Source: Allofournierella massiliensis | Lineage (GTDB): Bacteria > Bacillota > Clostridia > Oscillospirales > Ruminococcaceae | Direction of reading: 5' to 3' | Assembly (NCBI RefSeq): GCF_021531255.1 | Contig: NZ_JAFBIO010000002.1 | Coordinates: 62,001 to 126,000, forward strand | Length of the DNA: 64,000 bases | Shown here: piece by piece, positions 5,493 through 51,513 of the stretch | How the letters are laid out: each line of letters starts with the position of its first letter | Position numbering within the stretch: the stretch's first letter is position 1 | Made by a program: the position numbers and the translations under genes | Notes under the pieces: model-generated | What the model was told of the DNA's origin: nothing | What the model saw: only the letters and a program-made list of their open reading frames with translations | The model's database searches: none

Positions 5493-5548
5493 TGGGAACC
5501 TTTTGGGGAGCCCCATCGCATATATTTTCAATCAAGTATCAGAAACGT

Positions 5549-5666
5549 TGTTTCAGGGCGGGGTGAAAGTCCCCACCGGTGGTAAAGCCCACGAGCCCTC
5601 GCTGTTTGGCGGGGGTTGACCCGGTGAGATTCCGGGGCCGACGGTATAGTCCGGATGAAAGAAACA
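5549..5666 (+). promoter_or_regulatory. FMN riboswitch (RFN element)
   Basis: The conserved RFN blocks are present in order: TTTCAGGGCGGGGTGAAAGT, CCCACCGGTGG, GGTGAGATTCCGG, then GACGGTATAGTCCGGATG and GAAAGAAAC. P1 pairs TGTTTC (5549-5554) with GAAACA (5661-5666). It precedes a terminator and ribU, so FMN binding should shut off riboflavin uptake. Confidence 0.96.
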
Positions 5667-5690
5667 GCAGCGAAAGCCTGTGTTTGCTGT

Positions 5691-6519: not shown

Positions 6520-6548
6520 AGCACTCGCATACAAAAACAGAATAGCAA

Positions 6549-6641
6549 CTTATCAAGAGCGGCAGAGGGAACAGGCCCTGTGAAGCCCGGCAACCTGCAT
6601 TACTGTAAGGTGCCAAATCCTGCGGGAAACCGAAAGATAAG
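6549..6641 (+). promoter_or_regulatory. SAM-I riboswitch (S-box)
   Basis: The S-box signature is clear: CTTATCAAGAG, GGCAGAGGGA, GGCCCTGTGAAGCCCGGCAA and a closing GAAAGATAAG. P1 pairs CTTATC (6549-6554) with GATAAG (6636-6641). It controls metK by SAM-dependent termination. Confidence 0.96.
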
Positions 6642-6646
6642 CGTAT

Positions 6647-35596: not shown

Positions 35597-36368
35597 TTGG
35601 AGGATCACAAGATCGTGGAGCTGTATCTTGCCCGGGATGAGGCCGCGATCCGGCATACCGGCGAAAAATTCGGCGGCCGGCTGCGGTCCTTATCTTACGG
35701 CATCACCGAGGACCGGCAGACTGCCGAGGAGTGCGAGAACGATACATATCTCAGGGCCTGGAATTCCATCCCGCCCCCTGCCTCCGGAATACTCTTTTAC
35801 CCATTACAGCAACTATGAAGAGATAGAGGCCGCGGCGGAATATCTCATGGCTCAGTACGGGGAACTGCTGGGCATGGAGGAGCCCCGGCTCAATCTGTAC
35901 GGGGGAGACTATGACATTTACGGCCAGCAGCTGTACCGCTTGGAATTCTTTGAGGGGGACGGCAGTGATCTGGGTCAGATCCTCCATTATAACTTTACCC
36001 CCGTCGCTTTTTATTGCGACGATGCGGGTGGGCTTTTCCTGGTGCGGATCTGGCAGCCCGACCTGCCCCAGAAAATGGGGGATTACCCTATCATCATAGC
36101 CAGCTAGGCCCGGGAGCTGCTGCTGGAAGGGCACTATATCACCACCGTGCCCTATGAGATACCCGGTCGGGAGCATATCCGCAAGGTAGAACTGGTCTAC
36201 CGCATCGGCACCCAGGATGAATACTACATGCCCTATTACCGCTTTTATGCCGAACTGCCCCAGGAAAAGCGGGAAAACGGCCTGAACACCTACGGCGCCT
36301 ACTATGTGCCCGCCGTATCCGGGGAGTATCTCACCGGGATGCCCACCTGGGACGGCAGTTTTAATTAA
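35597..36368 (+). pseudogene. Chimeric relic: ECF sigma N-terminus joined to an anti-sigma-like C-terminus
   Basis: TTG start at 35597 behind AAAGGAGG. About 55 codons match sigma region 2, ending at CENDTYLRAWNSIPP, parallel to the gene at 1.5 kb. The DNA then passes directly into the C-terminal domain of another protein type (EYLMAQYGELLGMEEPRLNL, YRLEFFEGDGSDLGQ), in a different frame. After a TAG at 36105-36107 the same frame runs on (ARELLLEGHYITTVPYEIPG) to the TAA at 36368. An internal deletion between sigma and downstream gene, plus a nonsense mutation, best explains this. Confidence 0.6.
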
Positions 36369-36391
36369 ACATTTTAAATCATCCATTCTTT

Positions 36392-36419
36392 GCCCCGCCC
36401 TTTTTCGGGCGGGGCTTTT
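36392..36419 (+). terminator. Terminator before the NTPase-ModE gene
   Basis: GCCCCGCCC/GGGCGGGGC, T-rich loop, then TTTT. Confidence 0.8.
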
Positions 36420-36446
36420 GGCCGGGTCTGGCCCGGCGGGGGCGGG

Positions 36447-36457
36447 GATGCTATAAT
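36447..36457 (+). promoter_or_regulatory. Extended -10 promoter of the NTPase-ModE gene
   Basis: TGCTATAAT lies in a very G-rich stretch with no good -35; it matches the element before the NCS2 permease gene (40449-40457). Coordinates are approximate by a few bases. Confidence 0.45.
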
Positions 36458-36490
36458 AAAGCCAAACAAAACGAGGGGGGCAGCAGGGAA

Positions 36491-37360
36491 ATGCATACCA
36501 AGATCCTCATCACAGGCCGGCCGGGCACCGGCAAATCCACCCTGGCCCTCTGGCTGGTAAAACGGCTGGGGCGGCCCTGGGCAGGCTACCGCACCCTGTG
36601 CGCCGGCAGGTGCGAAGCCGGGCCGCTTTTTTCGCTTTATGCCTGTCCCGGCGGGGAATCGGCCCCCATCTCCCGCTGGGAGGAAGGGGCCATCCGGCCA
36701 GTGCCCGAGAGTTTTGAAGGGCTGGGCGCAGCCTGCCTGAAAAAGGCCCTGGAAGGGCCGGCGCCGGTGGTGCTGCTGGATGAGATCGGCCGGTTTGAAA
36801 AGGACTGCCCCGCCTTTCTGGGCCGGGTAGAGGAACTGTTGGGCAGCGAAAAGATCGTGGTGGCCGTCCTGAAACAGGAACCGCTGCCCTATCTGGACCG
36901 GTGGCGGGCACTGCCGGGGGCCCTGGTGCTGGATCTGGACAGGATCAGCCCCCTGCAGGCCCGGGAGGTGCTGGAACAGGAGCTGCCGCCCCTGCACTGG
37001 GGGCTGACCCTGCGCCTGTACGGGCAGGAGAAAAGCTTTGGCCCCGGCCCCCTGCGGCTGCTGGAAGGGGTGGAGCGCACCGGCTCCCTACACCGGGCCG
37101 CTGCCGAGATGGGCATGGCCTATTCCAAGGCCTGGAAGCTGCTGCAGAAGGTGGAGGCCGAGTGGGGCTTCCCGGTGCTGGAAAGCAGGCCCGGCGGCGC
37201 GGGGGGCGGCGGCTCTGCCCTCACCGCCCAGGGCCGGGAGCTGGCCGGGCGGTATCGCCGGATGCTGGAAGCGGTGGAGGCCGCCGCCTGCCAGGCCTTT
37301 GAGGAGGCCTTTGGGGATTTTGGGCCCGGGGAAGGCCCTGGCATAGACCGGAATCTTTGA
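36491..37360 (+). CDS. NTPase fused to a ModE-type winged-helix DNA-binding domain
   Basis: 289 residues. Residues 1-155 form a THEP1/NTPase_1-like P-loop domain: Walker A GRPGTGKST (9-17) and Walker B VVLLDEIGRFE (93-103). Residues about 184-265 match the ModE N-terminal domain: LRLLEGVERTGSLHRAAAEM, YSKAWKLLQKVE, the Gly loop RPGGAGGGGSALT. The molybdate-binding Mop/TOBE part of ModE is absent, so the NTPase may act as sensor. ATG at 36491 after AGGGGGGCAGCAGGG. It lies 129 bases before a FecCD-type importer whose promoter holds a ModE-like operator. Regulator of molybdate/tungstate uptake is inference. Confidence 0.8.
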   Translation: MHTKILITGRPGTGKSTLALWLVKRLGRPWAGYRTLCAGRCEAGPLFSLYACPGGESAPISRWEEGAIRPVPESFEGLGAACLKKALEGPAPVVLLDEIGRFEKDCPAFLGRVEELLGSEKIVVAVLKQEPLPYLDRWRALPGALVLDLDRISPLQAREVLEQELPPLHWGLTLRLYGQEKSFGPGPLRLLEGVERTGSLHRAAAEMGMAYSKAWKLLQKVEAEWGFPVLESRPGGAGGGGSALTAQGRELAGRYRRMLEAVEAAACQAFEEAFGDFGPGEGPGIDRNL

Positions 37361-37367
37361 AAAACGC

Positions 37368-37401
37368 TTTACAAAGCGATATTCTCGTGCTAGAATAACG
37401 C
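37368..37401 (+). promoter_or_regulatory. Importer promoter overlapped by a ModE-like operator
   Basis: TTTACA (37368-37373), 17 bases, TAGAAT (37391-37396). Over the spacer and -10 lies an inverted repeat, GCGaTATTCT (37376-37385), six bases, AGAATAaCGC (37392-37401). Its 9-6-9 core and CG...TA...TA...CG pattern parallel the E. coli modA operator. Binding there would block RNA polymerase. Confidence 0.7.
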
Positions 37402-37489
37402 GGGCCGGGCGGGAAGCCGAATTGGAAAACTCGCCCCGGCCAAGGGATAGTTTCAAAAAGCGTTTGAAAAGAAAGCGGGAGATTTTACC

Positions 37490-38584
37490 ATGAAAAACGC
37501 CAAATTTCTGCAGCGGGCAGGGGCTTTTGCCCTGGCCCTGACCATGGCCCTGTCCCTGGCAGGCTGCGGTCAGGCTGCCTCCGGCTCCTCTCAGGCGGCT
37601 TCCAGCGCGCCGGTTTCCAGCGCCGCCGCCTCCAGTGAGGCCGCCTCGTCTCAGGCCCAGGGGCCCATCCAGCTCACTGATCAGGCGGGCCGCCAGGTGG
37701 AACTGGAAGAGCCGGCCCAAAGCCTGGTCAGCTGCTACTATATCACCACCTATGCCACCCTGGCCCTGGGGGTCTCCGACCGGGTGGTGGGCCTGGAAAA
37801 GAAGGCCGAGACCCGGCCTGTTTACCAGATGGCCGATCCTGCCCTGCTGAAAAAGCCCCAGCTGGGCACCCTGAAGGAATTTGACGTGGAGGCCGCCGCG
37901 GCCCTGGAGCCGGACCTGGTGCTGATGCCCGTCAAGCTGATGGATTATGTGGATGCCCTCACCGAGCTGGGCATTCCGGTATTGGTGGTGGACCCGGAGG
38001 ATCAGGACCGGCTGGAAGAGATGCTGACCCTGATCGGCCAGGCCTGCGGCGTGGAGGACCGGGCCCAGAGCCTGATCGACTATTACCATGAGCAGGAAGA
38101 CCGGATGGCTCAGCTCATCGAAGGGCAGGAAAGCCCGCTGGTATACATGGGCGGCAACTCCTCCTATCTGGAAACAGCTACCAACGCCATGTACCAGGGC
38201 AGCCTGATCCAGTTGGCCGGCGGCCAGAACGCGGCCGGGGAGCTGGAAGGGGACTATTGGACCGAGATTTCCTATGAGTCCCTGCTGGCCATGGCCCCCG
38301 AAGTGATCATTCTGCCCTCTGCTGCCTCCTATACGGTGGAGGACGTGCTGAACTACGCCCAGCTGGCAGGGGTGCCCGCTGTGGAAGAGGGCCGGGTCTA
38401 CCAGATGCCCGGCCAGGTAGAGGAGTGGGATTCCCCGGTGCCTTCCGGCATTCTGGGGGCGCTCTGGCTCACCAGCACCCTGCATCCCGAGAGCTACAGC
38501 CAGGAGGAATTCGTGGTGGATGCCCAGGATTTTTATCGGGAGTTCTATGGCTTTGAGCTGGACGCTCAGCTGCTGACCGCCTGA
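37490..38584 (+). CDS. FecCD-system metal/oxyanion-binding lipoprotein, MolA-like
   Basis: 364 residues. Lipoprotein signal with lipobox SLAGC (Cys at about 25) and a Ser/Ala-rich linker to residue 58. The mature part is a TroA/FepB-type bilobal binding protein: ITTYATLALGVSDRVVGLEK, YWTEISYESLLAMAPEVIIL and near the end DSPVPSGILGALWLTSTLHP. Substrates of this fold include haem, cobalamin, siderophores and, in Haemophilus MolBCA, molybdate/tungstate. The ModE-like operator and the downstream XDH genes favour molybdate or tungstate here (inference). First gene of a three-gene operon. Confidence 0.82.
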   Translation: MKNAKFLQRAGAFALALTMALSLAGCGQAASGSSQAASSAPVSSAAASSEAASSQAQGPIQLTDQAGRQVELEEPAQSLVSCYYITTYATLALGVSDRVVGLEKKAETRPVYQMADPALLKKPQLGTLKEFDVEAAAALEPDLVLMPVKLMDYVDALTELGIPVLVVDPEDQDRLEEMLTLIGQACGVEDRAQSLIDYYHEQEDRMAQLIEGQESPLVYMGGNSSYLETATNAMYQGSLIQLAGGQNAAGELEGDYWTEISYESLLAMAPEVIILPSAASYTVEDVLNYAQLAGVPAVEEGRVYQMPGQVEEWDSPVPSGILGALWLTSTLHPESYSQEEFVVDAQDFYREFYGFELDAQLLTA

Positions 38585-38621: not shown

Positions 38622-39632
38622 ATGAAGAGGGAAAAAAGCGCGATGCTGATGGGGGCGGCCTGCGGGCTGCTGCTGGCTCTGTGCGCGGTATCCCTCTGTG
38701 TGGGCAGCTTCCCTCTTTCTCTTTCCCAAATCGGGGAGATCCTGCAGGGGGGCCTGGCCGGGGAGATGCCGGCCCGGGTATTCTGGACCCTGCGGGTGCC
38801 CCGCACGGCAGTGGGGCTGCTGGCCGGGCTGGGGCTGGGCCTGGCGGGGGGCGTGTACCAGACGGTGTTCCGCAATCCACTGGCCTCCCCGGATCTCACC
38901 GGCGTGGCCAGCGGCGCCTCCCTGGGGGCAGCCTGTGCCATTGTGCTGGGTTCCGGCGGCACCCTGGCCATGATGGCTGGGGCCTTCGGGGCCGGGCTGG
39001 CCAGCCTGGTGCTGGTGCTGGCCCTGGTGCGGGCGGCCCGCATGGAACACACCGTCACCTATGTGCTGGCGGGGGTGATTGTATCCTCGGCGGCGGATGC
39101 GGCCCTCATGGCCATGAAGGTATTGGCCGACCCGGAGCGGGAGCTGGCAGCCATTGAGTTCTGGACCATGGGCAGCCTGGCGGCGGTGACTGCCTCCAAG
39201 CTGGCCATGCTGGCCCCGGCGGTGGCCCTGCCCTTTTCTCTTCTGCTGCTCTTTCGCCGGCAGACGGCCATCCTCTCTCTGGGGGATGAGACCGCCCGCA
39301 GTCTGGGGCTGGAACCCCGCCGCTGGCGGGCGGTGCTGCTGGGCCTTACCACCCTGATGGTGGCGGCCCTGGTATCGGTGACCGGGGTGATCGCCTTTGT
39401 GGGGCTGATCGCCCCCCATATCGCCTTCCGGCTGCTGGGGCGAAGAGCCGGGCCCTATCTCTTCCTCTGCGCCCTTACGGGGGCGGATATTCTGCTGGCG
39501 GCCGACCTGCTGGCCCGCAGCCTTTCGCCGGGGGCGGAGCTGCCCCTGAGCATCTTCACCGTCCTGTTTGCGGTGCCGGTGCTCATCGCCCTGCTTTGCG
39601 GCAGGCGGGAAGGAGGGGACGAGGATGCTTGA
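38622..39632 (+). CDS. FecCD-family ABC transporter permease
   Basis: 336-residue polytopic permease with about 10 helices. Family marks: RVPRTAVGLLAGLGLGLAGG and VFRNPLASPDLTGVASGAS near the N-terminus, VTGVIAFVGLIAPHIAFRLL near the end. GAGGGGAG precedes the ATG, 37 bases after the binding protein. The end overlaps the ATPase gene by eight bases. Confidence 0.9.
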   Translation: MKREKSAMLMGAACGLLLALCAVSLCVGSFPLSLSQIGEILQGGLAGEMPARVFWTLRVPRTAVGLLAGLGLGLAGGVYQTVFRNPLASPDLTGVASGASLGAACAIVLGSGGTLAMMAGAFGAGLASLVLVLALVRAARMEHTVTYVLAGVIVSSAADAALMAMKVLADPERELAAIEFWTMGSLAAVTASKLAMLAPAVALPFSLLLLFRRQTAILSLGDETARSLGLEPRRWRAVLLGLTTLMVAALVSVTGVIAFVGLIAPHIAFRLLGRRAGPYLFLCALTGADILLAADLLARSLSPGAELPLSIFTVLFAVPVLIALLCGRREGGDEDA

Positions 39633-40395
39633 AGTGGAAAATCTGAGTGTTGGGTATACCAGGCCGGTGGTGCGCCGGGCCAGCTTTCGGCTGGAGGCCG
39701 GAAGCCTGGGCGGCATCCTGGGCCGGAACGGCAGCGGCAAAACCACCCTGCTGCGGGGCATCTGCGGCTCAGCCCGGGTGTATGAGGGCGCCGTCCGGGT
39801 GGAAGGGCAGGATTGCCTGGGGCTGTCGGCCCGGAAAAGAGCGGAAAAAATAGCCCTCCTGCCCCAACGCAGCCCTCTGCCCCAGGGATTGAGAGTGGGC
39901 GAGGTGATCCGGATGGGCCGGTATATTCACGGCAGCCCTTTCAGGGGGCCGGGCCCGGGGGAGGAAGCCATGGCACGCCGGGCGGCCGAGAGCCTGGGGA
40001 TCGGGGAGCTGTGGGGAAGGGACTGCGCCCTTCTCAGCGAGGGGCAGCGGCAGCTGGTGCAGCTGGCCCGGGCCCTGGCCCAGGACGCCCCCCTGCTGCT
40101 GCTGGATGAGCCCACCAGCGCCCTGGACCCGGAGAACGCCCAGCTTTTGTTCCGTCAGCTGCGCCGGCTTACCCAAAGCCAGAACAAGGCGGCCCTGGCA
40201 GTGGTGCACGACCCGGCCCTGGCCCTGCGCTGGTGTGACCGGCTGTACTGCATGAGGGAGGGAGTTCTGACCGGAGGAATCTGCCCGGCGGAATCCTCTC
40301 CACGGCAGATCCAGGATTTTTTGCGGCAAATCTGGCCCCAAATCTTGGTGAAAAAAGACAAAGAAACCGGGCTGTTTTACTCCCTTCTTGCCTAA
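39625..40395 (+). CDS. ABC transporter ATPase of the FecCD-type importer
   Basis: 256 residues, FepC/BtuD/MolC class. Walker A GRNGSGKTT (about residues 35-43), Q-loop LLPQRSPLP, signature LSEGQRQ (Glu instead of the usual second Gly), Walker B LLLLDEPTSALD, switch His in VVHDP. Starts inside the permease gene. The operon ends without a clear T-tailed terminator; a CGGCCGGTT/AACCGGCCG hairpin lies at about 40413-40441. Confidence 0.9.
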   Translation: MLEVENLSVGYTRPVVRRASFRLEAGSLGGILGRNGSGKTTLLRGICGSARVYEGAVRVEGQDCLGLSARKRAEKIALLPQRSPLPQGLRVGEVIRMGRYIHGSPFRGPGPGEEAMARRAAESLGIGELWGRDCALLSEGQRQLVQLARALAQDAPLLLLDEPTSALDPENAQLLFRQLRRLTQSQNKAALAVVHDPALALRWCDRLYCMREGVLTGGICPAESSPRQIQDFLRQIWPQILVKKDKETGLFYSLLA

Positions 40396-40523: not shown

Positions 40524-41924
40524 ATGGAAGAAAAAAAGAATGTTACACCCTATGATTTTAAAGGACGGCTGCCCTTAAAGCAGGCCATCCCCCTGGGCCT
40601 GCAGCATGTGCTGGCCATGTTTGTAGGCAACCTGACCCCCATCCTCATCATCACCGGTGCCTGCGCGGCGGGCAGCGGCGCGGAGGAGCTGGCGGCGGTG
40701 CAGGTGGCCCTTTTGCAGAACGCCATGCTGGTGGCCGGCCTGGTCACCCTGGTGCAGCTCTTCTCCATCGGCCCGGTGGGCGGCCAGGTACCCATCATCA
40801 TGGGCACCAGCTCCGGCTTTATCGGGGTGTTCCAGGGCGTGGCCCAAAGCATGGGCGGCGGCATCCTGGCCTACGGCGCCATGATGGGCGCTTCCATCAT
40901 CGGTGGCCTGTTCGAGACGGTGCTGGGCGCCTTCCTCAAGCCCCTGCGCCGGTTTTTCCCGGCGGTGGTCACCGGCACGGTGGTCATGTCCATCGGCCTT
41001 TCCCTCATCAGCGTGGGCGTGGCCTCTTTTGGCGGCGGCAGCGGCGCGGCGGACTACGGTTCGGCCGAAAACCTGCTGATCGGCCTGCTGGTGATGGCGG
41101 TGATCCTAGCCCTCAAGCACGGCGCCAAGGGTCTGGCCAGCTCCTCCTGCATCCTGCTGGGCATCCTGTTCGGCTATCTGCTCTGCATGGTGCTGCCCTT
41201 TGTCTGGTCCACCACCGGCGTGACCGCCGAAGGGGTGGAATACACCAAGGCGTGGGTGCTCAACTGGGATAAGGTGGCCCAGGCTTCCTGGTTCTCCATG
41301 CCCCAGCTCATGCCGGTCAAGCCGGTGTTTGATCTGCGGGCTATCCTGCCCGTGGGCATCATGTTTATTGTCACCGCTGTGGAGACGGTGGGCGATATTT
41401 CGGGCGTTACCGAGGGCGGTATGGGCCGGGAGGCCACCGATACTGAGCTTTCCGGCGGCATCATGTGCGACGGCCTGGGTTCCAGCTTTGCCGCTCTCTT
41501 CGGTGTGCTGCCCAACACCTCTTTCAGCCAGAACGTGGGCCTTGTGACCATGACCAAGATCGTCAACCGGTTTGCCCTGGCCTGCGGCGCGGTGTTCCTG
41601 GTACTGTGCGGGCTGTTCCCCAAGCTGGCAGCCCTCATTTCCATCATGCCCCAGAGCGTGTTGGGCGGCGCGGCGGTCATCATGTTCTCCTCCATTGTGA
41701 TGAGCGGCATCCAGCTCATCACCAGCGAGCCCCTAAACACCCGCAACATGACCATCGTGTCGGTGGCGCTGGGCCTGGGCTATGGTCTGGGTGCCAACAG
41801 CGCGGTGCTCTCCGGCCTGCCTCAGGCGGTGCAGCTGATCTTCGGCGGTTCCGGCATTGTGCCCGCCGCCTTTGTGGCCATCCTGCTCAACCTGCTGCTG
41901 CCCAAAGAGAAAAAAGCCGAATAA
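40524..41924 (+). CDS. NCS2-family xanthine/uracil permease
   Basis: 466 residues, 14 predicted helices. Family marks: PLGLQHVLAMFVGNLTPILI near the N-terminus, the helix 8 region VETVGDISGV and the motif FSQNVGLVTMTKIVNR. NCS2 proteins are proton-coupled purine or pyrimidine symporters; the neighbouring xanthine-dehydrogenase genes make xanthine, hypoxanthine or urate likely. ATG at 40524 behind GAAGAGAAG. Own promoter and terminator. Confidence 0.9.
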   Translation: MEEKKNVTPYDFKGRLPLKQAIPLGLQHVLAMFVGNLTPILIITGACAAGSGAEELAAVQVALLQNAMLVAGLVTLVQLFSIGPVGGQVPIIMGTSSGFIGVFQGVAQSMGGGILAYGAMMGASIIGGLFETVLGAFLKPLRRFFPAVVTGTVVMSIGLSLISVGVASFGGGSGAADYGSAENLLIGLLVMAVILALKHGAKGLASSSCILLGILFGYLLCMVLPFVWSTTGVTAEGVEYTKAWVLNWDKVAQASWFSMPQLMPVKPVFDLRAILPVGIMFIVTAVETVGDISGVTEGGMGREATDTELSGGIMCDGLGSSFAALFGVLPNTSFSQNVGLVTMTKIVNRFALACGAVFLVLCGLFPKLAALISIMPQSVLGGAAVIMFSSIVMSGIQLITSEPLNTRNMTIVSVALGLGYGLGANSAVLSGLPQAVQLIFGGSGIVPAAFVAILLNLLLPKEKKAE

Positions 41925-42115: not shown

Positions 42116-42907
42116 GTGCTGAGCATCGGACAATATGTCAGGGCCCAGAGCCTGGAGGAAGCCTACACCCTCTGCCAGAAAAAGAGCAGTGTGGTGCTGG
42201 GCGGCATACTCTGGCTGAAAATGCAGAACCGGACCGTGGGTACGGCCATCGACCTGTGTGATCTGGGGCTGGAGGGCATTGAGGAGACGGAGGAAGAATT
42301 CCGCATCGGCGCCATGACCAGCCTGCGGGCGCTGGAAACTCACCCCGGCCTGAACGCTTATACCGGCGGGGCCATGGCCCGGTGCCTGGGCTCCATCGTG
42401 GGGGTCCAGTTCCGCAATCTGGCCACCATCGGGGGCAGCCTGTACGGGCGGTTTGGTTTTTCCGACCCCCTCACTCTGCTGATGGCCCTGGGGGCAAAGG
42501 TGGAACTGTACCATCGGGGCGTACTGGAATTGGAAGAATTTGCGGCGCTGCCCTTCGAGCGGGATATTCTGGTGCGGGTGATCCTGCCCAAAACTACAAA
42601 GGGGGCGGTTTATCGTTCCCAGCGCAACACCGCCACCGATTTCCCCGTGCTCACCTTTGCGGCGGCACGCCGGCCCGAGGGTCTGGTCTGCGCCCTGGGG
42701 GCCCGGCCCGGGAAGGCCAGATTGTTCCGGGATGAAGAGGGGATCCTTGCCGGCGGCATCACCCCCGAAAGCGCCGAAACATTCGGCCGTTGGCTGGCGG
42801 ATCAGGCGGCCCTGGGCCATGATCTGCGGGCCGGGGAAGAGTATCGCCGGCGGATTTGCCGGGTGTTGGCCCGGCGCGGCCTGCTGGAACTGGCAAAGGA
42901 GGAGTAA
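42116..42907 (+). CDS. xdhB: Xanthine-dehydrogenase-type FAD-binding subunit
   Basis: 263 residues, CO-dehydrogenase flavoprotein/XdhB fold. The FAD pyrophosphate loops appear as VVLGGILWLKM and NLATIGGSLYGRFGFSDPL. It passes electrons from the Fe-S subunit to NAD or another acceptor. It begins with GTG at 42116 behind GTGAGGAA. First of three XDH subunit genes, two bases before the next. Confidence 0.88.
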   Translation: MLSIGQYVRAQSLEEAYTLCQKKSSVVLGGILWLKMQNRTVGTAIDLCDLGLEGIEETEEEFRIGAMTSLRALETHPGLNAYTGGAMARCLGSIVGVQFRNLATIGGSLYGRFGFSDPLTLLMALGAKVELYHRGVLELEEFAALPFERDILVRVILPKTTKGAVYRSQRNTATDFPVLTFAAARRPEGLVCALGARPGKARLFRDEEGILAGGITPESAETFGRWLADQAALGHDLRAGEEYRRRICRVLARRGLLELAKEE

Positions 42908-42909
42908 GG

Positions 42910-43386
42910 ATGGAAATCTCCCTCACGCTGAATGGTAAAACTGTCAAGGCGCAGATCGCGCCCGATACCCTGCTGCTGGATTTCCTGCGCCAGCAGGGCT
43001 GCCTCAGCGTCAAGCGGGGCTGCGAAACAGCCAACTGTGGGCTCTGCACCGTGTTTCTGGATGAACACCCTGTGCTTTCCTGCGGGGTGCTGGCCGCCCG
43101 GGCGGCGGGCCATCAGGTGCGCACCCTGGAAGGGCTGCAGAGCGAGGCGGAAGAGTTTGTGGGCTTCATTGCCGACCAGGGGGCCGAGCAGTGCGGCTTC
43201 TGCAACCCGGGTTTTGTGATGAACACCATTGCCCTTTTGCGGGAAAACCCAGACCCCACCGATGACGAGATCCGGGCCTTCCTGTCGGGCAATCTCTGCC
43301 GCTGCTCCGGCTACGAGGGGCAGCTGCGGGGCATCCGGGCCTATCTGGATTGGAAAAAGAAGGGAGGGGCCGACCGTGGAGAATAA
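42910..43386 (+). CDS. xdhC: Xanthine-dehydrogenase-type 2Fe-2S subunit
   Basis: 158 residues. N-terminal plant-type ferredoxin site GCETANCGLCTVFLDEHPVLSC, here Cys 41, 46, 49 and about 61, gives one 2Fe-2S cluster. The C-terminal helical domain has QCGFCNPG and NLCRCSGY for the second. ATG at 42910 behind AAGGAGGAG. The end overlaps xdhA by 11 bases. Confidence 0.94.
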   Translation: MEISLTLNGKTVKAQIAPDTLLLDFLRQQGCLSVKRGCETANCGLCTVFLDEHPVLSCGVLAARAAGHQVRTLEGLQSEAEEFVGFIADQGAEQCGFCNPGFVMNTIALLRENPDPTDDEIRAFLSGNLCRCSGYEGQLRGIRAYLDWKKKGGADRGE

Positions 43387-45673
43387 GACCTTCAAGACCG
43401 TGGGCAAGCCCCTGCGGAAAAAGGACGCCATGGGCCTTTTGCTGGGCAAGCCCGCCTATGTGGACGATGTGACCCCCCGGGACTGCCTGGTGGTCAAGGT
43501 GCTGCGCAGCCCCCATGCCCATGCCCTGATCGAAGAAATTGACACTTCCGTGGCTATGAAGGTGCCGGGGATGGTGGCGGTGTACACCTACCGGGATGTG
43601 CCCCAGAAGCGGTTTACCATGGCGGGGCAGACGGCCCCGGAGCCTTCCCCCTATGACCGGCTGATCCTGGATCAGCGGGTCCGCTTTGTGGGGGACGCGG
43701 TGGCCGTTCTGGCCGGCGAAAACGAGGCGGCGGTGAACAAAGCCCTCAAGCTGGTGAAGGTGCGTTATCAGGTGCTGGAACCGGTGCTGGATATCCACAC
43801 CGCCAAGGATAACCCCATCCTGGTCCACCCCGAAGAAAATTGGCGCAGCCTCTGCCCGGTAGGGGCGGACAACCATCGCAACCTCTGCGCCAGCGAGGTG
43901 AGCGGAGACGGGGATGTGGAGGCTGTGCTGGCCAGCTGTGATGAGGTGGTGGAGCGCACCTACCACACCAAGGCCTGCCAGCAGGCCATGATGGAGACCT
44001 TCCGCACCTATACCGAGATGGACCCCTACGGGAGGCTCCATGTGGTCAGCTCCACCCAGATCGTCTTCCATGTGCGGCGGATCCTGGCCAACGCCCTGGA
44101 CATCCCCCGTTCCCGCATCCATGTGGAAAAGCCCCGCATCGGCGGCGGCTTTGGGGCCAAACAGACGGTGGTGGCTGAGGTCTACCCGGCCCTGGTCACC
44201 TGGAAGACCGGCCGCCCCGCCAAGATGATCTATACCCGGCAGGAATGCCAGATCGCCGGTTCCCCCCGCCATGAGATGGAGGTGCGGGTGCGCCTGGGAG
44301 CCATGCGGGACGGCTCCATCCGGGCGCTGGATGTGTACACCCTCTCCAACACCGGCGCATACGGCGAGCACGGCCCCACCACGGTGGGTCTTTCCGGCCA
44401 TAAATCCATCCCTCTGTACACCGGCGGGCTGGAGGCCTATCGTTTTGGCTACGACGTGGTGTATACCAATGTGCAGGCCGCCGGCGCCTACCGGGGCTAC
44501 GGGGCTACCCAGGGCATCTTTGCGGTGGAGTCGGCAGTGAACGAGCTGGCTGCCCGCCTGGGGATGGACCCGGTGGAACTGCGCAAGAAGAACATGGTGC
44601 GGGAAGGCCAGGCCATGCCTGCCTATTACGGCGAGGTGGCCGGGGCCTGCGCTCTAGACCGGTGCATGGACCGGTGCGCCGAGATCTTCGGCTGGAAGGA
44701 AAAATTCCCGGTGCGGGAGCTGGGCGGCGGCAAGGTGCGCACGGCCGGCGTGGCCATGGCCATGCAGGGCTCCGGTATTTCCGGGGTGGACGTGGGTTCC
44801 GCCACCGTCAAACTCAGCGACGACGGTTTTTACAACCTGACCATCGGCGCTGCCGATATGGGCACCGGCTGTGATACCATTCTGGCCCAGATGGTGGCCG
44901 AATGTATGGACTGCGGCCTGGAAGATGTGGCGGTTTTCGGCGCGGATACCGACGCCTCCCCCTACGATTCCGGCTCCTATGCCTCCTCCACTACCTATGT
45001 CACCGGCAAGGCGGTGGAAAAGGCCTGCGGCGAGCTGAAGGAAAAGATCTGCGCCCTGGCCGCCGATATGCTGGGCTGCGGCCCCGAGCAGGTGGAATTC
45101 GCCGGCCGGACGGTGCGCCGGCTGGACGGCAAGGGGCAGGTGAGCCTGGCCCAGATCGCGGATCGCTCCATGTGCGGCAACGAGACGGCCCTGCAGGCTA
45201 CCTGTTCCCATTCCTCTCCCATCTCGCCGCCCCCCTTCATGGTGGGCATGGCCGAGATCGAGCTGGACCGGGAGACCGGTTCGGTAAAGCTGCTGGACTA
45301 TGCGGCTGTGGTGGACTGCGGCACCCCCATCAACCCCAACCTGGCCCGGGTGCAGACCGAGGGCGGCCTGGTGCAGGGCATCGGCATGGCCCTTTCGGAA
45401 AATGTCACCTACACCCCCGAGGGGCGGATCCTGGAAGATTCCTTCATGCAGTACAAGATCCCCACCCGGCTGGATATGGGCAAGCTGCGGGTGGAGTTTG
45501 AGTCCAGCTATGAGCAGACCGGCCCCTTTGGCGCCAAATCCATCGGGGAGATCGTCATCAATACCCCGGCCCCGGCCCTGGCCCATGCCATTTATCGGGC
45601 CACCGGCGTCTGGCATCGGGAACTGCCCATCACCCCGGAAAAGATCCTGCTGGGGATGGATGGGCAGGAATGA
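43376..45673 (+). CDS. xdhA: Molybdenum hydroxylase large subunit (xanthine dehydrogenase type)
   Basis: 765 residues, binds the molybdopterin cofactor. Domain a/b hammerhead at 15-130, then Moco-binding domains: IGGGFGAKQ, QAAGAYRGYGATQG, AADMGTGCDT. The catalytic Glu lies in FGAKSIGEIVINTP near the C-terminus, the Clostridia-type form of the GEPP motif. Hydroxylates a purine-like heterocycle using water. The exact substrate cannot be told; xanthine fits the upstream permease. GTG start at 43376 behind GGGAGGGG. ATGA overlap with the MocA-like gene. Confidence 0.92.
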   Translation: MENKTFKTVGKPLRKKDAMGLLLGKPAYVDDVTPRDCLVVKVLRSPHAHALIEEIDTSVAMKVPGMVAVYTYRDVPQKRFTMAGQTAPEPSPYDRLILDQRVRFVGDAVAVLAGENEAAVNKALKLVKVRYQVLEPVLDIHTAKDNPILVHPEENWRSLCPVGADNHRNLCASEVSGDGDVEAVLASCDEVVERTYHTKACQQAMMETFRTYTEMDPYGRLHVVSSTQIVFHVRRILANALDIPRSRIHVEKPRIGGGFGAKQTVVAEVYPALVTWKTGRPAKMIYTRQECQIAGSPRHEMEVRVRLGAMRDGSIRALDVYTLSNTGAYGEHGPTTVGLSGHKSIPLYTGGLEAYRFGYDVVYTNVQAAGAYRGYGATQGIFAVESAVNELAARLGMDPVELRKKNMVREGQAMPAYYGEVAGACALDRCMDRCAEIFGWKEKFPVRELGGGKVRTAGVAMAMQGSGISGVDVGSATVKLSDDGFYNLTIGAADMGTGCDTILAQMVAECMDCGLEDVAVFGADTDASPYDSGSYASSTTYVTGKAVEKACGELKEKICALAADMLGCGPEQVEFAGRTVRRLDGKGQVSLAQIADRSMCGNETALQATCSHSSPISPPPFMVGMAEIELDRETGSVKLLDYAAVVDCGTPINPNLARVQTEGGLVQGIGMALSENVTYTPEGRILEDSFMQYKIPTRLDMGKLRVEFESSYEQTGPFGAKSIGEIVINTPAPALAHAIYRATGVWHRELPITPEKILLGMDGQE

Positions 45674-46263
45674 AACATCTGATCTATCTGGCGGCGGGCT
45701 CTGCCCGCCGCTTTGGTTCCAATAAGCTGCTGGCCCCTTACCGGGGCCGGCCTCTCTTTGCCTGGGGGCTTTCCGCGCTGGAAGAGGCGGCGGCGGGCCG
45801 GGCGGATTGCCGGATTTGGGTGGTTTCCCGCTGGCCGGAGATTTTAAGGCAAGCCCGGGCCCTGGGCTGCGGGGCAGTGAACAGCCCCGAAAGCGAAAAG
45901 GGGCTGGCCTGCACCATCCGGGCAGCGCTGGAAAACCTGCCCCCGGCACAGGGGGATTACTACCTCTTTGCGGTGGCGGATCAGCCCGGTATGCGGGGAG
46001 AAACCGTTGCCCGGCTGCTGGAAGCCGCCGACCGGGGCGTACTGGCTGCCAGCCTTTGGCTGGAAGATCATCCCGGCAGCCCCACCCTCTTTTCGGCGGC
46101 CCTGCGGGATCAGCTGCTGGCGCTGGAAGGGGAGGAAGGGGGCCGCAAGGTGCTGGAACGCTGCGGAAGCCAATGTCTGCGCATCCCCGCCGATAGGGCA
46201 GGGGAACTGTGGGATGTGGACAGGCCCGAAGATCTTGAGAAAATGGAGGAATTTTCCCCATGA
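45670..46263 (+). CDS. mocA: MocA-like molybdenum cofactor cytidylyltransferase
   Basis: 197-residue nucleotidyltransferase. N-terminal motif LAAGSARRFGSNKLLAPYRG is the MobA/MocA NTP site, DQPGMRG the metal-binding loop, and HPGSPTLFS the cofactor loop. MocA converts MPT-Mo to the cytidine dinucleotide form used by xanthine-dehydrogenase-family enzymes. Four-base overlap with xdhA means it is made with its client. The stop overlaps the next start as ATGA. Confidence 0.87.
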   Translation: MKHLIYLAAGSARRFGSNKLLAPYRGRPLFAWGLSALEEAAAGRADCRIWVVSRWPEILRQARALGCGAVNSPESEKGLACTIRAALENLPPAQGDYYLFAVADQPGMRGETVARLLEAADRGVLAASLWLEDHPGSPTLFSAALRDQLLALEGEEGGRKVLERCGSQCLRIPADRAGELWDVDRPEDLEKMEEFSP

Positions 46264-46435: not shown

Positions 46436-46539
46436 GTCAGCAAAAAGGTGAAGCCTCACAGGGAAGAAGGCAGAATCGGCCTGGCAAGAGTTGCCTGCGA
46501 GGTTTGTGGGGCCGTGCCGGATCTTGGCACGGCCTTTTT
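46436..46539 (+). ncRNA. Candidate structured leader RNA or riboswitch with terminator
   Basis: About 100 bases between the promoter and a terminator. A closing helix pairs GCCTCACA (46453-46460) with TGTGGGGC (46505-46512). Inside are GCAG/CTGC (46470-46473, 46495-46498) and GCAA/TTGC (46484-46487, 46491-46494). The terminator GGCCGTGCC/GGCACGGCC (46510-46518, 46526-46534) plus TTTTT shares three bases with the closing helix. A bulged CGGCC (46477-46481) could pair with GGCCG in the terminator. It matches no riboswitch family I know. moxR starts 72 bases later. Confidence 0.55.
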
Positions 46540-46610
46540 GGGCCGAAAAATGGATTTTACTGAAAATAAAAAGTATAAACAATATCAAAAAACACAGGAA
46601 GGAAACAAAA

Positions 46611-47438
46611 ATGAAGGGAAAAACCTTTGGGGGCAGCCAGGACTACGTGGCCTCGGAAGAACTGCTCAGCGCCGTGAACATTGCCATGACCCTTCAGAAG
46701 CCCCTGCTTCTGAAGGGCGAGCCGGGTACCGGTAAAACCATGCTGGCCCGGTCCATCGCTTCGTCCCTGCATGCCCCCCTGTATATCTGGAACATCAAAT
46801 CCACCACCAAGGCTCAGGACGGGCTGTATGTGTACGACGTGGTACAGCGGCTGTATGACAGCCAGTTCGGTGGCGAAGGGGTGGATGACATTGAAAAATA
46901 TGTCCACCTGGGGCAGGTGGGCGAGGCCTTCGAGAGTGAGGAGAGGGCGGTGCTGCTCATTGACGAGATCGACAAGGCCGACCTGGAATTCCCCAACGAC
47001 CTTCTGTGGGAGCTGGATCAGATGGAGTTCACCATCCCCCAGACCGGCCGCACCGTGAAGGCCAAGCACCGGCCGGTGATCCTCATCACCTCCAATGCGG
47101 AAAAGGAGCTGCCGGACGCCTTCCTGCGCCGGTGCATCTTCCACTATATCGAGTTCCCCGACGAGGCCCTCATGCGCCGGATCATCGGGGTGCATTACCC
47201 TGACCTGGAACAGAACCTGCTGGATCAGGCCATCGCCGCCTTTTACTGGGTGCGCGGCCTGCCCGGCCTGCAGAAAAAGCCCAGCACCAGCGAGCTGATC
47301 GACTGGATCCGGGCCCTCACCTTCAGCGGCATTCCCCAGGAGGAGATCCTGCGGCAGATCCCCTTTGCCGGGGTGCTGCTGAAAAAGAACGAGGATCTGG
47401 AAAGCCTGGAAAAATCCAAGGCACGGCGCCGGTTCTGA
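46611..47438 (+). CDS. MoxR-family AAA+ ATPase, CoxD-like
   Basis: 275 residues. Walker A GEPGTGKTM (about residues 35-43), Walker B VLLIDEIDKAD, sensor ILITSNAEKELPDAFLRRC. In Mo-hydroxylase operons this ATPase type (CoxD) works with a VWA protein (CoxE) to mature the active site, for example adding sulfur to the cofactor. ATG at 46611 behind AGGAAGGAA in a conspicuously A-rich leader. The VWA gene follows by 31 bases. Confidence 0.87.
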   Translation: MKGKTFGGSQDYVASEELLSAVNIAMTLQKPLLLKGEPGTGKTMLARSIASSLHAPLYIWNIKSTTKAQDGLYVYDVVQRLYDSQFGGEGVDDIEKYVHLGQVGEAFESEERAVLLIDEIDKADLEFPNDLLWELDQMEFTIPQTGRTVKAKHRPVILITSNAEKELPDAFLRRCIFHYIEFPDEALMRRIIGVHYPDLEQNLLDQAIAAFYWVRGLPGLQKKPSTSELIDWIRALTFSGIPQEEILRQIPFAGVLLKKNEDLESLEKSKARRRF

Positions 47439-47469
47439 GGGCCGGGCCACAGGGCAAAGGGAAAAACGG

Positions 47470-48648
47470 ATGTTTACAGACTTCTTTTATTATCTGCGCA
47501 GCCAGGGGCTGGCCGTCTCCCTGCAGGAGTGGCTCACCCTCTGCGAGGCATTGGATAAGGGGCTGGCTGGGGCCAGCTTTACCCGATTTTACGGGCTGTG
47601 CCGGGCGGTGCTCATCAAGAGCGAGGCGGATTACGACAAATTTGATTCGGCCTTTATTCGGTATTTCCGGGCCATTGCCGAGGCCTCGGAGGAGATCCCT
47701 CCGGAGCTGATGGAATGGCTCAACAAGCCGGCGGTCACCCCCGGCAACTACGACGAAGAGATCGCCCGGCTCAATAGCCTGCTCACCCCCGAACAGATTG
47801 AGGAAATGCTGGCCCAGCGGCTGAAGGAACAGAAGGAAGAACACAACGGAGGCAGCTACTGGGTGGGCACCGGGGGTATGTCCACCTTCGGCAATGCGGG
47901 CAACAGTCCCACCGGCATCCGGGTCGGGGGGCAGAGCATCCACCACCGGGCCTTCCGGGTGGCAGGGGAGCGCCGGTTCCGGGATTTCACCGGGGATACG
48001 GTGCTGGATACCCGCCAGTTCCAGGTGGCTCTGCGGCGGCTGCGCCAGTATTCCGCCAAAACCGACGTGCCCAAAACTGAGCTGAACCCGGACGCCACGG
48101 TGGATGCCACCTGCGAGAACGGCGGTACCCTCAAGCTGGTGTACGAGCGGCCCCGGATCAATACCGTCAAAGTGCTGATGCTGATGGATTCCGGCGGCAG
48201 TATGGATTATTATTCGGGGCTCTGCACCGCCCTGTTCCAGGCGGTGCGCAAATCCAACCATTTCAAGGATCTGAAGATCTACTATTTCCACAACTGCGTC
48301 TACAGCCACCTGTACACCGAGCCCACCTGCAACCCGGCCAAATGGGTCACCACCGAAAGCGTGCTGAACACTCTGGGGCGGGATTACAAGGTGATCTTTG
48401 TGGGGGATGCGGAGATGGCCCCCTATGAGCTGTGGGGCGGCCAGTACGCAAAGCGCAAGAGCGGGCTGGACTGGCTGCTCACCATCCGGGATCATTTCTC
48501 CCATGTGGTCTGGCTCAACCCGGGCACCGGAGATTCCTACTGGGGCGTCTGCCAGACCTATGACGCCATCCGCCATGAGTTTGATATGTATACCCTCACG
48601 GTGAAAAATCTGGAAAAGGCCCTGAAAAAACTGGTGTCTGCCCGCTGA
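47470..48648 (+). CDS. VWA-domain protein, CoxE-like
   Basis: 392 residues. The N-terminal helical half has [20 protein letters not shown]; the C-terminal von Willebrand A domain has metal site [11 protein letters not shown] (about residues 240-250), a form of DxSxS. CoxE-type proteins partner MoxR ATPases as metal-chelating adaptors. Position directly behind the MoxR gene and after an XDH/MocA cluster supports a maturation role for the molybdenum hydroxylase. No membrane segment. Confidence 0.85.
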
Positions 48649-48682: not shown

Positions 48683-48711
48683 TTGACAAGAGCAGACCGG
48701 GGCTATATAGT
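48683..48711 (+). promoter_or_regulatory. Promoter of the potABCD operon
   Basis: TTGACA (48683-48688), 17 bases, TATAGT (48706-48711). Confidence 0.82.
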
Positions 48712-48731
48712 GGATAATGAAAAAGTGTCTG

Positions 48732-48775
48732 AAAAGGGCCGTTTGACGCCGGGCAGGGCGGACAAACGGCCTTTT
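48732..48775 (+). promoter_or_regulatory. Terminator-like hairpin in the potA leader
   Basis: GGCCGTTTG (48737-48745) pairs with CAAACGGCC (48763-48771), flanked by AAAA and TTTT, with an inner CGCC/GGCG. It begins about 14 bases after the predicted transcript start. Confidence 0.5.
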
Positions 48776-48802
48776 GAGAGCGAGGAAAAAAGGAGGATCG
48801 GG

Positions 48803-49849
48803 ATGGAGCAGAATGTGATCGTATCCCTGAAGGACATTGTGGTGGAATACGACGGGGAAAAGGTGCTGGACAAGCTCTCGCTGGATATCCCGGATAAGGG
48901 CTTTGTAACCTTCCTGGGCCCTTCCGGCTGCGGCAAAACCACGACTTTGCGGGTGGTGGGCGGCTTTGTGGAGCCCAAAAGCGGGGTCGTGCTGTTTGAC
49001 GGCAAGGACATCACCGATCTGCCCCCCTATCGCCGTCAGGTGAATACGGTGTTCCAGAAATACGCTCTGTTCCCCCATCTGAATGTGTTTGAAAACGTGG
49101 CCTTTGGGCTGCGGCTGAAAAAGCTGGACGAAAAGGAGATCCGCCGCCGGGTATTGGAGATGCTGGAGGTGGTGGGCCTCAAGGGTTTTGAGCGCCGTGC
49201 CGTGACCCAGATGTCCGGCGGGCAGCAGCAGCGGGTGGCCATCGCCCGGGGGCTGGTGAATCAGCCCCGGGTGCTGCTGCTGGACGAACCCCTGGGCGCA
49301 TTGGATCTGAAGCTGCGCAAGGAGATGCAGCTGGAGCTCAAGCGGCTGCAGCGGGAGATGAATATCACCTTTATTTATGTGACTCACGACCAGGAGGAGG
49401 CCCTCACCATGTCCGACACGGTGGTGGTCATGAACCAGGGTCATGTGCAGCAGATCGGCAGCCCGGAGGATATCTACAACGAGCCGGAAAACGCCTTTGT
49501 AGCCGATTTTATCGGCGCTTCCAACATCCTGGACGGGGTGATGCTGGCCGATTACCGGGCCGAATTTTCCGGCCGGGAATTTGTCTGTGTGGATAAGGGC
49601 TTTGCCCGCAACCAGCCGGTGCAGGTGGTCATCCGCCCCGAGGATATCAAGGTGGTGCCGGCCGGCCAGGGCATGCTCACCGGTGTGGTGGAGGATGTGA
49701 TCTTCAAGGGCGTCCACTTTGAGATGCATGTGGACTGCGACGGCCGGGAATGGCTGATTCATTCCACCCAGGCCTGCCGCCAGGGGGAAGCCATCGGGAT
49801 GGATATCGGCCCCGATGAGATCCACATCATGGCCAGAATGGAGGAGTGA
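48803..49849 (+). CDS. potA: Spermidine/putrescine ABC transporter ATPase
   Basis: 348 residues. Walker [10 protein letters not shown] (about residues 37-45), Q-loop [11 protein letters not shown], signature [10 protein letters not shown], Walker [12 protein letters not shown], then a C-terminal TOBE regulatory domain (about 270-348). AAGGAGG lies before the ATG. Head of potABCD; the gene order and PotD-like partner identify polyamine uptake. Confidence 0.93.
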
Positions 49850-49852
49850 GGA

Positions 49853-50665
49853 ATGATCAAAAGCAAGGCGGCTGCCTCGCCCTATCTGGTCTGGATGGTG
49901 ATTTTTATTGTAGCGCCGCTGCTCATTGTGGCCTACTATGCCTTCACGGACGCCTCGGGCAATTTCACCCTGGAAAACATCATGGCCATCGGCCGGTATT
50001 CCAGCGTCTTTGCCCGCAGTTTGTTGCTGGCAGCCGAGGCTACGGTGATCTGCCTGGTGCTGGCCTTTCCGGTGGGGTATTTCCTCTCCCGGCTGCGGGC
50101 CTCCAAGCAGCATATCATGCTGATGCTGGTGATGCTGCCCATGTGGATGAACTTTTTGCTGCGCACCTACGCCTGGATGAGCCTGTTGGAAAATAACGGC
50201 ATCATCAACACGGTGCTGGGCTTTTTCGGCCTGGGCCCCTTCCGGATGATCAACACTGCGGGGGCGGTGGTGCTGGGCATGGTGTACAACTACCTGCCCT
50301 ATATGATCCTGCCCCTGTATACCGCCATGACCAAGATCGACAACAGTATCATCGAGGCCGCACAGGATCTGGGCGCCTCCACCCTGGGCACCTTCACCAA
50401 GGTGCTGCTGCCCCTTTCCGGCCCGGGCATTGCTACCGGCATCACCATGGTGTTTGTGCCCAGTGTGTCCACCTTTATCATCAGCCGGATGCTGGGCGGC
50501 GGTTCCAACCTGCTCATCGGTGACCTGATCGAGCTGCAATTCCTGGGCAACAGCTATAACTTCAACATGGGCAGCGCCATGAGCCTGGTGCTGATGGTGA
50601 TCGTTCTGCTCTGCATGAGCTTCACCTCCAGCTTTGACGAGCAGGAAATGGAAGGGGTGATGTGA
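49853..50665 (+). CDS. potB: Spermidine/putrescine ABC transporter permease PotB
   Basis: 270 residues, six helices. The coupling motif EAAQDLGASTLGTFTKVLLPLSGPGI is split in the usual EAA loop (about residues 167-192). Starts four bases after potA behind GGAGTGAGG and its last base overlaps the potC ATG. Confidence 0.92.
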   Translation: MIKSKAAASPYLVWMVIFIVAPLLIVAYYAFTDASGNFTLENIMAIGRYSSVFARSLLLAAEATVICLVLAFPVGYFLSRLRASKQHIMLMLVMLPMWMNFLLRTYAWMSLLENNGIINTVLGFFGLGPFRMINTAGAVVLGMVYNYLPYMILPLYTAMTKIDNSIIEAAQDLGASTLGTFTKVLLPLSGPGIATGITMVFVPSVSTFIISRMLGGGSNLLIGDLIELQFLGNSYNFNMGSAMSLVLMVIVLLCMSFTSSFDEQEMEGVM

Positions 50666-51513
50666 TGAAAAACCGTCATCTTCGTCTTTTGCAGCGCACT
50701 TATGTGGTGCTGATCTTCTGTTTCATGTATCTACCCATCCTGGTTCTGGCGGTTTTCAGCTTCAACGAGAGCAAGAGCCGCACCGTCTTTACCGGCTTTA
50801 CCCTGGATTGGTACAAGAGCCTTTTCACCAACCGGATGATCCTCTCGGCCCTGGCTCTCAGCCTGGCGGTGGCCTTGGTTTCGGCGGTGGTGGCCACGGT
50901 GGTGGGCACCATGGCCACGGTGGGCATCAGCGCCATGGGGCGCAAAAGCCAGCTGTTCATCAACAACATCAGCTATATGCCGGTGGTCAACCCGGAGATC
51001 ATCACCGGTGTCAGCCTGATGCTGCTGTTTGTCTTTCTGCAGAACTGGGCTTCCAAGTTTGACGCCCTGCCGGACGCCTTCTTTGGGCTGCCCACTCTGC
51101 TCATTGCCCACATCACCTTCAATCTTCCCTATGTGATCTTCAATGTGAGTCCCAAGCTGCGCCAGATGGACAGCCGCATCTATGAGGCAGCCCTGGATCT
51201 GGGCTGCACCCCCCGCCAGGCTTTTTTCAAGGCGGTACTGCCGGAACTGACCCCCGCCATCCTGTCGGCCTTCCTGATCTGCCTGACCTATTCCATTGAT
51301 GATTTTATCATCTCCTATTTCAACTGCGGCACTCTGCAGACCCTGCCCATCGCCATCTACAGCATGACCCGCAAGAAGGTCAGCCCCGAGATCAACGCTC
51401 TTTCCACCATCATGTTCCTGGTGATCCTGTCCATTATCCTGATCTCCAACGCCCTGGACAGTCGCCGCTACAAGCGGGAACAGGGCCTGGGAAAGGCAGG
51501 TGAGGGACGGTGA
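50665..51513 (+). CDS. potC: Spermidine/putrescine ABC transporter permease PotC
   Basis: 282 residues, six helices. EAA loop EAALDLGCTPRQAFFKAVLP, followed by SIDDFIISYFNCG, a PotC hallmark. I use the ATG at 50665 in a TGATG overlap; a GTG at 50662 is in frame too. Overlaps the potD start by four bases. Confidence 0.92.
   Translation: MKNRHLRLLQRTYVVLIFCFMYLPILVLAVFSFNESKSRTVFTGFTLDWYKSLFTNRMILSALALSLAVALVSAVVATVVGTMATVGISAMGRKSQLFINNISYMPVVNPEIITGVSLMLLFVFLQNWASKFDALPDAFFGLPTLLIAHITFNLPYVIFNVSPKLRQMDSRIYEAALDLGCTPRQAFFKAVLPELTPAILSAFLICLTYSIDDFIISYFNCGTLQTLPIAIYSMTRKKVSPEINALSTIMFLVILSIILISNALDSRRYKREQGLGKAGEGR

Follow-up and report, generated by a model that had tools for sequence, protein, structure and literature searches.

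Genes and features of the locus

At the locus analysed here, a gene for a putative regulator lies directly upstream of an ABC importer operon, and the intergenic region between them contains a promoter and an inverted repeat; genes of a xanthine dehydrogenase-type (XDH-type) enzyme follow downstream. The main features, with positions in the 64-kb window (the whole stretch of DNA that was analysed), are as follows.

36491..37360, plus strand: putative regulator of 289 amino acids, an NTPase_1/THEP1-like P-loop domain plus a ModE N-terminal helix-turn-helix (HTH) domain (PF03266, PF00126, TIGR00637 and PDB matches)
37368..37396, plus strand: sigma-70-type promoter TTTACA-17-TAGAAT (10/12 matches, TG before the -10 element)
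37376..37401, no strand assigned: inverted repeat, putative ModE-type operator (uniqueness, conservation in relatives, independent matrix score)
37490..38584, plus strand: substrate-binding lipoprotein, Peripla_BP_2, class III substrate-binding protein (SBP) (domain match, PDB relatives)
38622..39632, plus strand: FecCD-type ABC permease (PF01032, 4e-78)
39604..40395, plus strand: ABC importer ATPase (PF00005, 1.9e-28)
40524..41924, plus strand: NCS2 xanthine-type permease, adjoining the importer in the window and in several relatives
42116..42907, plus strand: XDH-type FAD subunit (PF00941)
42910..43386, plus strand: XDH-type 2Fe-2S subunit (PF01799, PF00111)
43328..45673, plus strand: XDH-type Mo-binding subunit (PF02738, PF20256; best NCBIfam match XdhA, below cut-off)
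45670..46263, plus strand: stand-alone MobA-like (MocA-type) nucleotidyltransferase (PF12804, 2.5e-31)
46491..48648, plus strand: MoxR-type AAA ATPase and CoxE-like VWA protein (VWA_CoxE just under the gathering score)

The gene 3' of the repeat opens a Peripla_BP_2, FecCD and ABC operon, in line with the FecCD importer named in the first-pass annotation. Among the PDB relatives of the SBP, the closest is 4hn9 (1e-81), and MolA (HI_1472, 3psa) matches at 7e-16; those of the permease include MolB (HI1471, 2nq2; 4e-41). The importer has the MolABC-type make-up of a Peripla_BP_2 SBP, a FecCD permease and an ABC ATPase, a likeness at the superfamily level, given that systems for B12, haem and siderophores reach similar scores. 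Searches against Rfam at the gathering threshold detected no element, including the Moco riboswitch, at the importer locus. Elsewhere in the window, Rfam matches comprise ordinary FMN (5545-5670) and SAM (6547-6643) riboswitches, both on the plus strand, and one tRNA.

The true start of the Mo-binding subunit probably falls at about 43328-43376, within the ORF listed as 43229-45673, and the MoxR/CoxE-like proteins are a probable Mo-hydroxylase maturation pair. After the XDH maturation genes, a second ABC importer (48683-52754) consists of a TOBE_2 (PF08402) ATPase (48683-49849), two permeases and an SBP_bac_8 protein, which is not a ModA by TIGR01256. On the other side of the regulator gene, the region 35599-36368 contains a decayed gene, whose sigma-factor-like start gives way to a different reading frame that is interrupted by a stop near 36107.

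The inverted repeat and its conservation

The repeat, GCGATATTCT-CGTGCT-AGAATAACGC, has arms of 10 nt with one mismatched pair and a spacer of 6 nt; its 24-nt core, CGATATTCT-CGTGCT-AGAATAACG, occupies positions 37377-37400. The promoter consists of a -35 element, TTTACA (37368-37373), a 17-nt spacer and a -10 element, TAGAAT (37391-37396), and ranks best among the 3 promoter-like matches in 36350-37550 (0.2 expected). The repeat overlies both the spacer and the -10 element; at the sequence level, this bears out the earlier suggestion of a ModE-like operator placed on the promoter of the FecCD importer. Even with up to 3 mismatches allowed, the repeat matches only itself within the window, shuffled sequences giving 0 expected matches, and the pattern CGWTAT-N12-ATAWCG occurs a single time in the complete 2.53-Mb genome (99.9% complete). 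A relaxed pattern, used to look for further ModE sites in the same genome, yielded nothing closer than 3 mismatches.

Footprinting of the intergenic region in relatives, the check that the first-pass annotation had proposed, was positive. A 9-6-9 site, CGTTrT..T-N6-A..AyAACG, lies just 5' of the SBP gene in all 20 related SBP-FecCD-ABC operons examined, a set that includes the operon in the window and, at L091, a degenerate site; two loci (L060 and L061) with remote SBPs (23-24% identity), another gene order and no box were omitted. The nearest relative, L031, with a fusion protein 81% identical to the putative regulator, retains the stretch from the -35 element through the repeat (GCTTTACAAAGCGATATTCTCrTGyTAGAATAACGCGGGCCGG), the surrounding intergenic DNA having diverged, and here, too, the operator lies on the spacer and the -10 element. 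Across 89 sequences, the CGnTA-N14-TAnCG spacing is enriched (20 occurrences vs 2-10 at other spacings). The usual gene order in the relatives is SBP, FecCD, ABC, ModE HTH and a combined NTPase and MobA-like transferase; the importer operon is commonly divergent from the XDH operon, and an NCS2 permease is nearby. In the window itself, about 45 nt 5' of the SBP start, the segment 37446-37471 (ATAGTTTCAAAAAGCGTTTGAAAAG) resembles half of the box of the relatives and occupies the same position as theirs; it is possibly a decayed ancestral site, for which the matrix described below gives no support.

A chance inverted repeat or a terminator stem was considered as well, inverted repeats being common in intergenic DNA and a weak terminator-like match being present on the minus strand at 37365-37378. 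The conservation of the repeat in the 20 operons rules this candidate out, and the E. coli-type sequence, the fixed spacing and the zero expectation from shuffles also speak against it; we give it practically no chance.

Sites of the same type are found in other relatives upstream of modA (L108, L114, L041), yqeC (L111), a gene for an XdhA-type subunit (L124), a FecCD permease gene (L128), yedE (L047, L054) and yedF (L062), as well as upstream of ModE HTH genes themselves. A matrix built from 11 such sites outside importer operons (modA, modE, yqeC, xdhA, yedE and yedF), all from relatives, and hence independent of the importer sites, scored the site in the window at 23.5, the runner-up in the 64 kb reaching 3.2. 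Applied to the mod locus of E. coli, the same matrix gave its top score (15.5 vs 2.9) to the modA operator, CGTTATATTGTCGCCTACATAACG. The 9-6-9 spacing and the CGnTA-type half sites that had been likened to the E. coli modA operator are indeed present, and one matrix recognises both sites.

The site also co-occurs with the protein. In a sample of 298 genomes of the family, 52 of which carry a match to the fusion protein, such a match (nearly always over the ModE domain) was detected in 19/25 genomes with the exact site and in 33/273 genomes without it (Fisher p 1.4e-11; p 0.68 for a reversed-pattern control). On this evidence, the repeat belongs to the ModE-family operators, to which a ModE-family protein would be expected to bind.

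The boxes 5' of the selenium-metabolism genes yedE, yedF and yqeC (L047 5162, L054 3099, L062 10301 and L111 1501) hint that selenium-dependent Mo hydroxylases are served by a regulon common to Mo and Se. The matrix thereby widens the ModE regulon to these selenium genes, as expected for such enzymes.

The box is preceded at 5-8 nt by a -10-like hexamer in 13 relatives, usually with a -35 element at 16-18 nt; this hexamer ends just 5' of the box, which therefore extends over the region where transcription starts. Both placements, over the spacer and -10 element or over the start region, suit a repressor. An activation operator or a dual site, rather than one of simple repression, would have a precedent in E. 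coli ModE, which can also activate, at moaA (PMC2408646), but the two placements argue against this reading, which we consider very unlikely.

The putative regulator

The ORF 36491-37360 does contain the ModE-type HTH that had been claimed for the gene directly upstream of the repeat. The NTPase_1/THEP1-like domain spans residues ~1-165 (PF03266, 4.1e-15) and includes a Walker A motif, GRPGTGKS; the ModE HTH (~166-280) matches PF00126 as well as TIGR00637 at 8.5e-18, under the cut-off of 98.5 bits for the latter. PDB matches of the protein are 2ijl, 1b9m and 1o7l (ModE) and 1ye8 (THEP1). The AlphaFold model (mean pLDDT 72.7, with the HTH blocks mostly at 80-96) contains a winged HTH and a long C-terminal helix for which the best PDB matches are ModE, and an NTPase part for which the best match is THEP1. 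The HTH shares with E. coli ModE the MGMAYSKAW segment and the GG.GGGG..LT wing.

By domain profiles, the protein contains no TOBE/Mop molybdate-binding domain, and a PF03459 TOBE domain is missing from the whole genome. Canonical molybdate sensing through this protein is therefore not possible, and sensing of molybdate in the manner of ModE cannot be taken as given. We accordingly classify the putative regulator, from its domain composition, as a fusion of the ModE-HTH family and do not file it as a full-length ModE (PRK10676-type).

The NTPase-HTH fusions of the window, L031, L101 and L102 form one clade (support 100/98), placed with weak support near the HTH proteins of SBP-FecCD-ABC operons. 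The order of the domains is reversed compared with the gene order in relatives, so that the fusion is not a simple read-through. The P-loop is intact across all NTPase relatives, and in relatives the NTPase domain is fused to a MobA-like transferase (NTPase-NTP_transf_3). The same HTH family is fused elsewhere to MobA-like transferases, in either order (L057, L059, L062, L075 and L076), to MobB (L068) and to XdhC/CoxI (L039), and these TOBE-less fusions were found in different Clostridia and Coriobacteriia, at the following loci.

L039, 5977-7353
L057, 5518-6456
L059, 5857-6885
L062, 5905-6861
L068, 3754-4587
L075, 1155-2273
L076, 5267-6208

In L034, L035 and L046, the HTH proteins seemed to have long N-termini; these were rejected as candidate fusions, being products of a spurious upstream reading frame without domains. 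In the literature searched, we found no report of ModE-MobA, ModE-MobB or ModE-YedE links, which is not proof of absence.

Is this protein the one that acts at the repeat? The site might instead be bound in vivo by another protein, the fusion being mainly an enzyme with a leftover HTH. Such a reading would fit the lack of a known effector domain in the fusion and the existence, within the fusion clade, of paralogues without a visible box (L101 and L102). However, the fusion is the only protein in the genome with detectable similarity to its own ModE HTH and is encoded beside the only site in the genome; moreover, the HTH contact regions are strongly conserved, and the site and the fusion are kept together in L031. 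Binding by another protein thus appears quite improbable, and the fusion remains the preferred regulator.

The paralogues are second NTPase-HTH fusions (L101 8719-9687, L102 2393-3334) encoded directly 5' of NCS2 permease/XDH genes, with no recognisable ModE box between the paralogue and the NCS2 permease gene. Autoregulation of the fusion gene in the window was considered and rejected: no box is present upstream, and the segment 36390-36418 holds just a terminator-like GC-rich stem.

Proposed mechanism and comparison with known systems

Our preferred reading, which we consider probable, is that a ModE-family repressor uses the repeat as its operator and thereby controls a MolABC/FecBCD-type importer serving the adjacent XDH-type (Mo-hydroxylase) operon. 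Most likely, a dimer of the upstream 289-aa protein would bind the operator through its ModE-type winged HTH and, because the operator covers the spacer and the -10 element, would block RNA polymerase and so repress the importer. The imported species would carry molybdenum; the operator, the linkage to XDH genes and the lack of any ModA over the cut-off in the genome suggest molybdate or tungstate. The input signal would, with less certainty, be the state of cofactor maturation, conveyed by a nucleotide or a cofactor that the NTPase binds. The signal may be Mo-cofactor status rather than free molybdate, because the regulator lacks a domain for binding molybdate and carries, next to its HTH, an NTPase of a kind that relatives build into a MobA-like maturation enzyme; that a single DNA-binding domain has been combined several times with different maturation enzymes likewise suggests maturation state as the input. 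Points that speak against the preferred reading are the TIGR00637 score of the HTH below the cut-off, the lack of TOBE (PF03459) and of MoeA and MogA/MoaB in the genome, the L101 and L102 paralogues without a box beside their targets, and the likeness of the importer to MolABC at the superfamily level.

The content of molybdenum cofactor (Moco) genes bears on what is imported. No MoeA_N domain (PF03453) and no MogA/MoaB were detected in the 99.9% complete genome, where CinA is the sole PF00994 (MoCF) protein; thus the MoeA/MogA-type Mo insertase used as the criterion for de novo Moco synthesis was not found. Homologues of MoaA, MoaB, MoaC, MoaE and MoeA were likewise not found in the ~38% of the genome sampled, which included the whole contig. 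Taken together, these results imply either an unknown route of Mo insertion or import of a Mo-pterin. Moco-biosynthesis genes are nearby in 0/21 FecCD-linked ModE loci vs 12/57 other ModE loci. With XDH-type genes but neither MoeA_N nor a MoCF-domain protein other than CinA, the whole genome (G000; L146 1489-2790) is possibly an orphan-molybdoprotein genome.

These gene absences, together with the lack of Moco-biosynthesis genes near FecCD-linked loci, are what could be expected if the same operator and repressor governed an importer whose substrate was not molybdate but a Mo-pterin (Moco or molybdopterin) or some other chelate of Mo, with the NTPase and the MocA-like protein finishing the cofactor; salvage would then be needed because the organism cannot insert Mo itself. 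FecBCD-type importers usually carry large cofactors, which also agrees with such a substrate. On the other hand, Moco is labile outside proteins, we know of no bacterial Moco importer, and the scan for moaA, moaC and moaE covered ~38% of the genome. Furthermore, the substrate of H. influenzae MolABC, an importer of the same type, is molybdate (PMC4031551). We consider Mo-pterin import unlikely, the context suggesting molybdate. An equally doubtful generalisation would be that ModE-HTH repressors of gut Clostridia and Coriobacteriia read Mo-cofactor maturation, not molybdate, via fused or co-encoded NTPase, MobA-like, MobB or XdhC proteins, and that the one in the lineage of the window controls FecCD-type salvage of ready-made Mo-pterin, the genome being without a known Mo insertase.

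Several components of the proposed circuit have counterparts. The repeat resembles the E. coli modA operator, a 9-6-9 palindrome CGnTA...TAnCG at the promoter of a Mo importer (consensus in PMC545781), and differs from it in the inner half-site (TTCT vs TATATA in E. coli); the target in E. coli is the ModABC importer, whereas in the window it is a FecCD-type importer. The HTH and the GG.GGGG wing of E. coli ModE are conserved in the putative regulator, but where the full E. coli protein has two molybdate-binding TOBE domains, this protein has a P-loop NTPase, at its N-terminus.

In Desulfovibrio, single-domain, HTH-only ModE proteins are linked to Mo transport, and how they sense Mo has been stated to be unclear (PMC545781). 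Like the protein in the window, these have the DNA-binding domain of ModE and lack one that binds molybdate; unlike it, they consist of the HTH only, not of an HTH fused to an NTPase, and their sites (CGGTCACG-N14-CGTGACCG) depart from the E. coli-type sequence kept in the window (PMC545781). The NTPase domain matches PF03266 and THEP1 (1ye8). The fusion of this NTPase to a MobA-like NTP transferase in relatives recalls MobB-MobA, although in the window its partner is a DNA-binding domain and by sequence it is not MobB.

The importer resembles H. influenzae MolBC-A (HI1470-1472), a proven molybdate importer with a class III SBP, a FecCD-type permease and an ATPase, in which molB is repressed by molybdate via an 'unknown factor' (PMC4031551). 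No operator or regulator is known for the mol genes, whereas in the window both lie beside the operon, in an XDH context. The 1-kb locus makes three questions testable, namely, how ModE proteins without a molybdate domain sense their signal (PMC545781), how molybdate is coupled to the transcription of a mol-type importer (PMC4031551) and what serves for uptake in the 278 Mo-using bacteria reported without a known transporter (PMC6147048). Importers of the class found here are candidates for some of these bacteria.

Taken singly, the elements have precedents: ModE boxes and ModE proteins made of the HTH only have been described, as have MolABC importers (PMC545781, PMC4031551). What appears to be new, as far as the literature was searched, is that a FecCD-type importer adjoining an XDH operon comes together with a box of the E. 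coli type and an NTPase-HTH fusion that lacks TOBE, here in a genome without a ModA over the cut-off.
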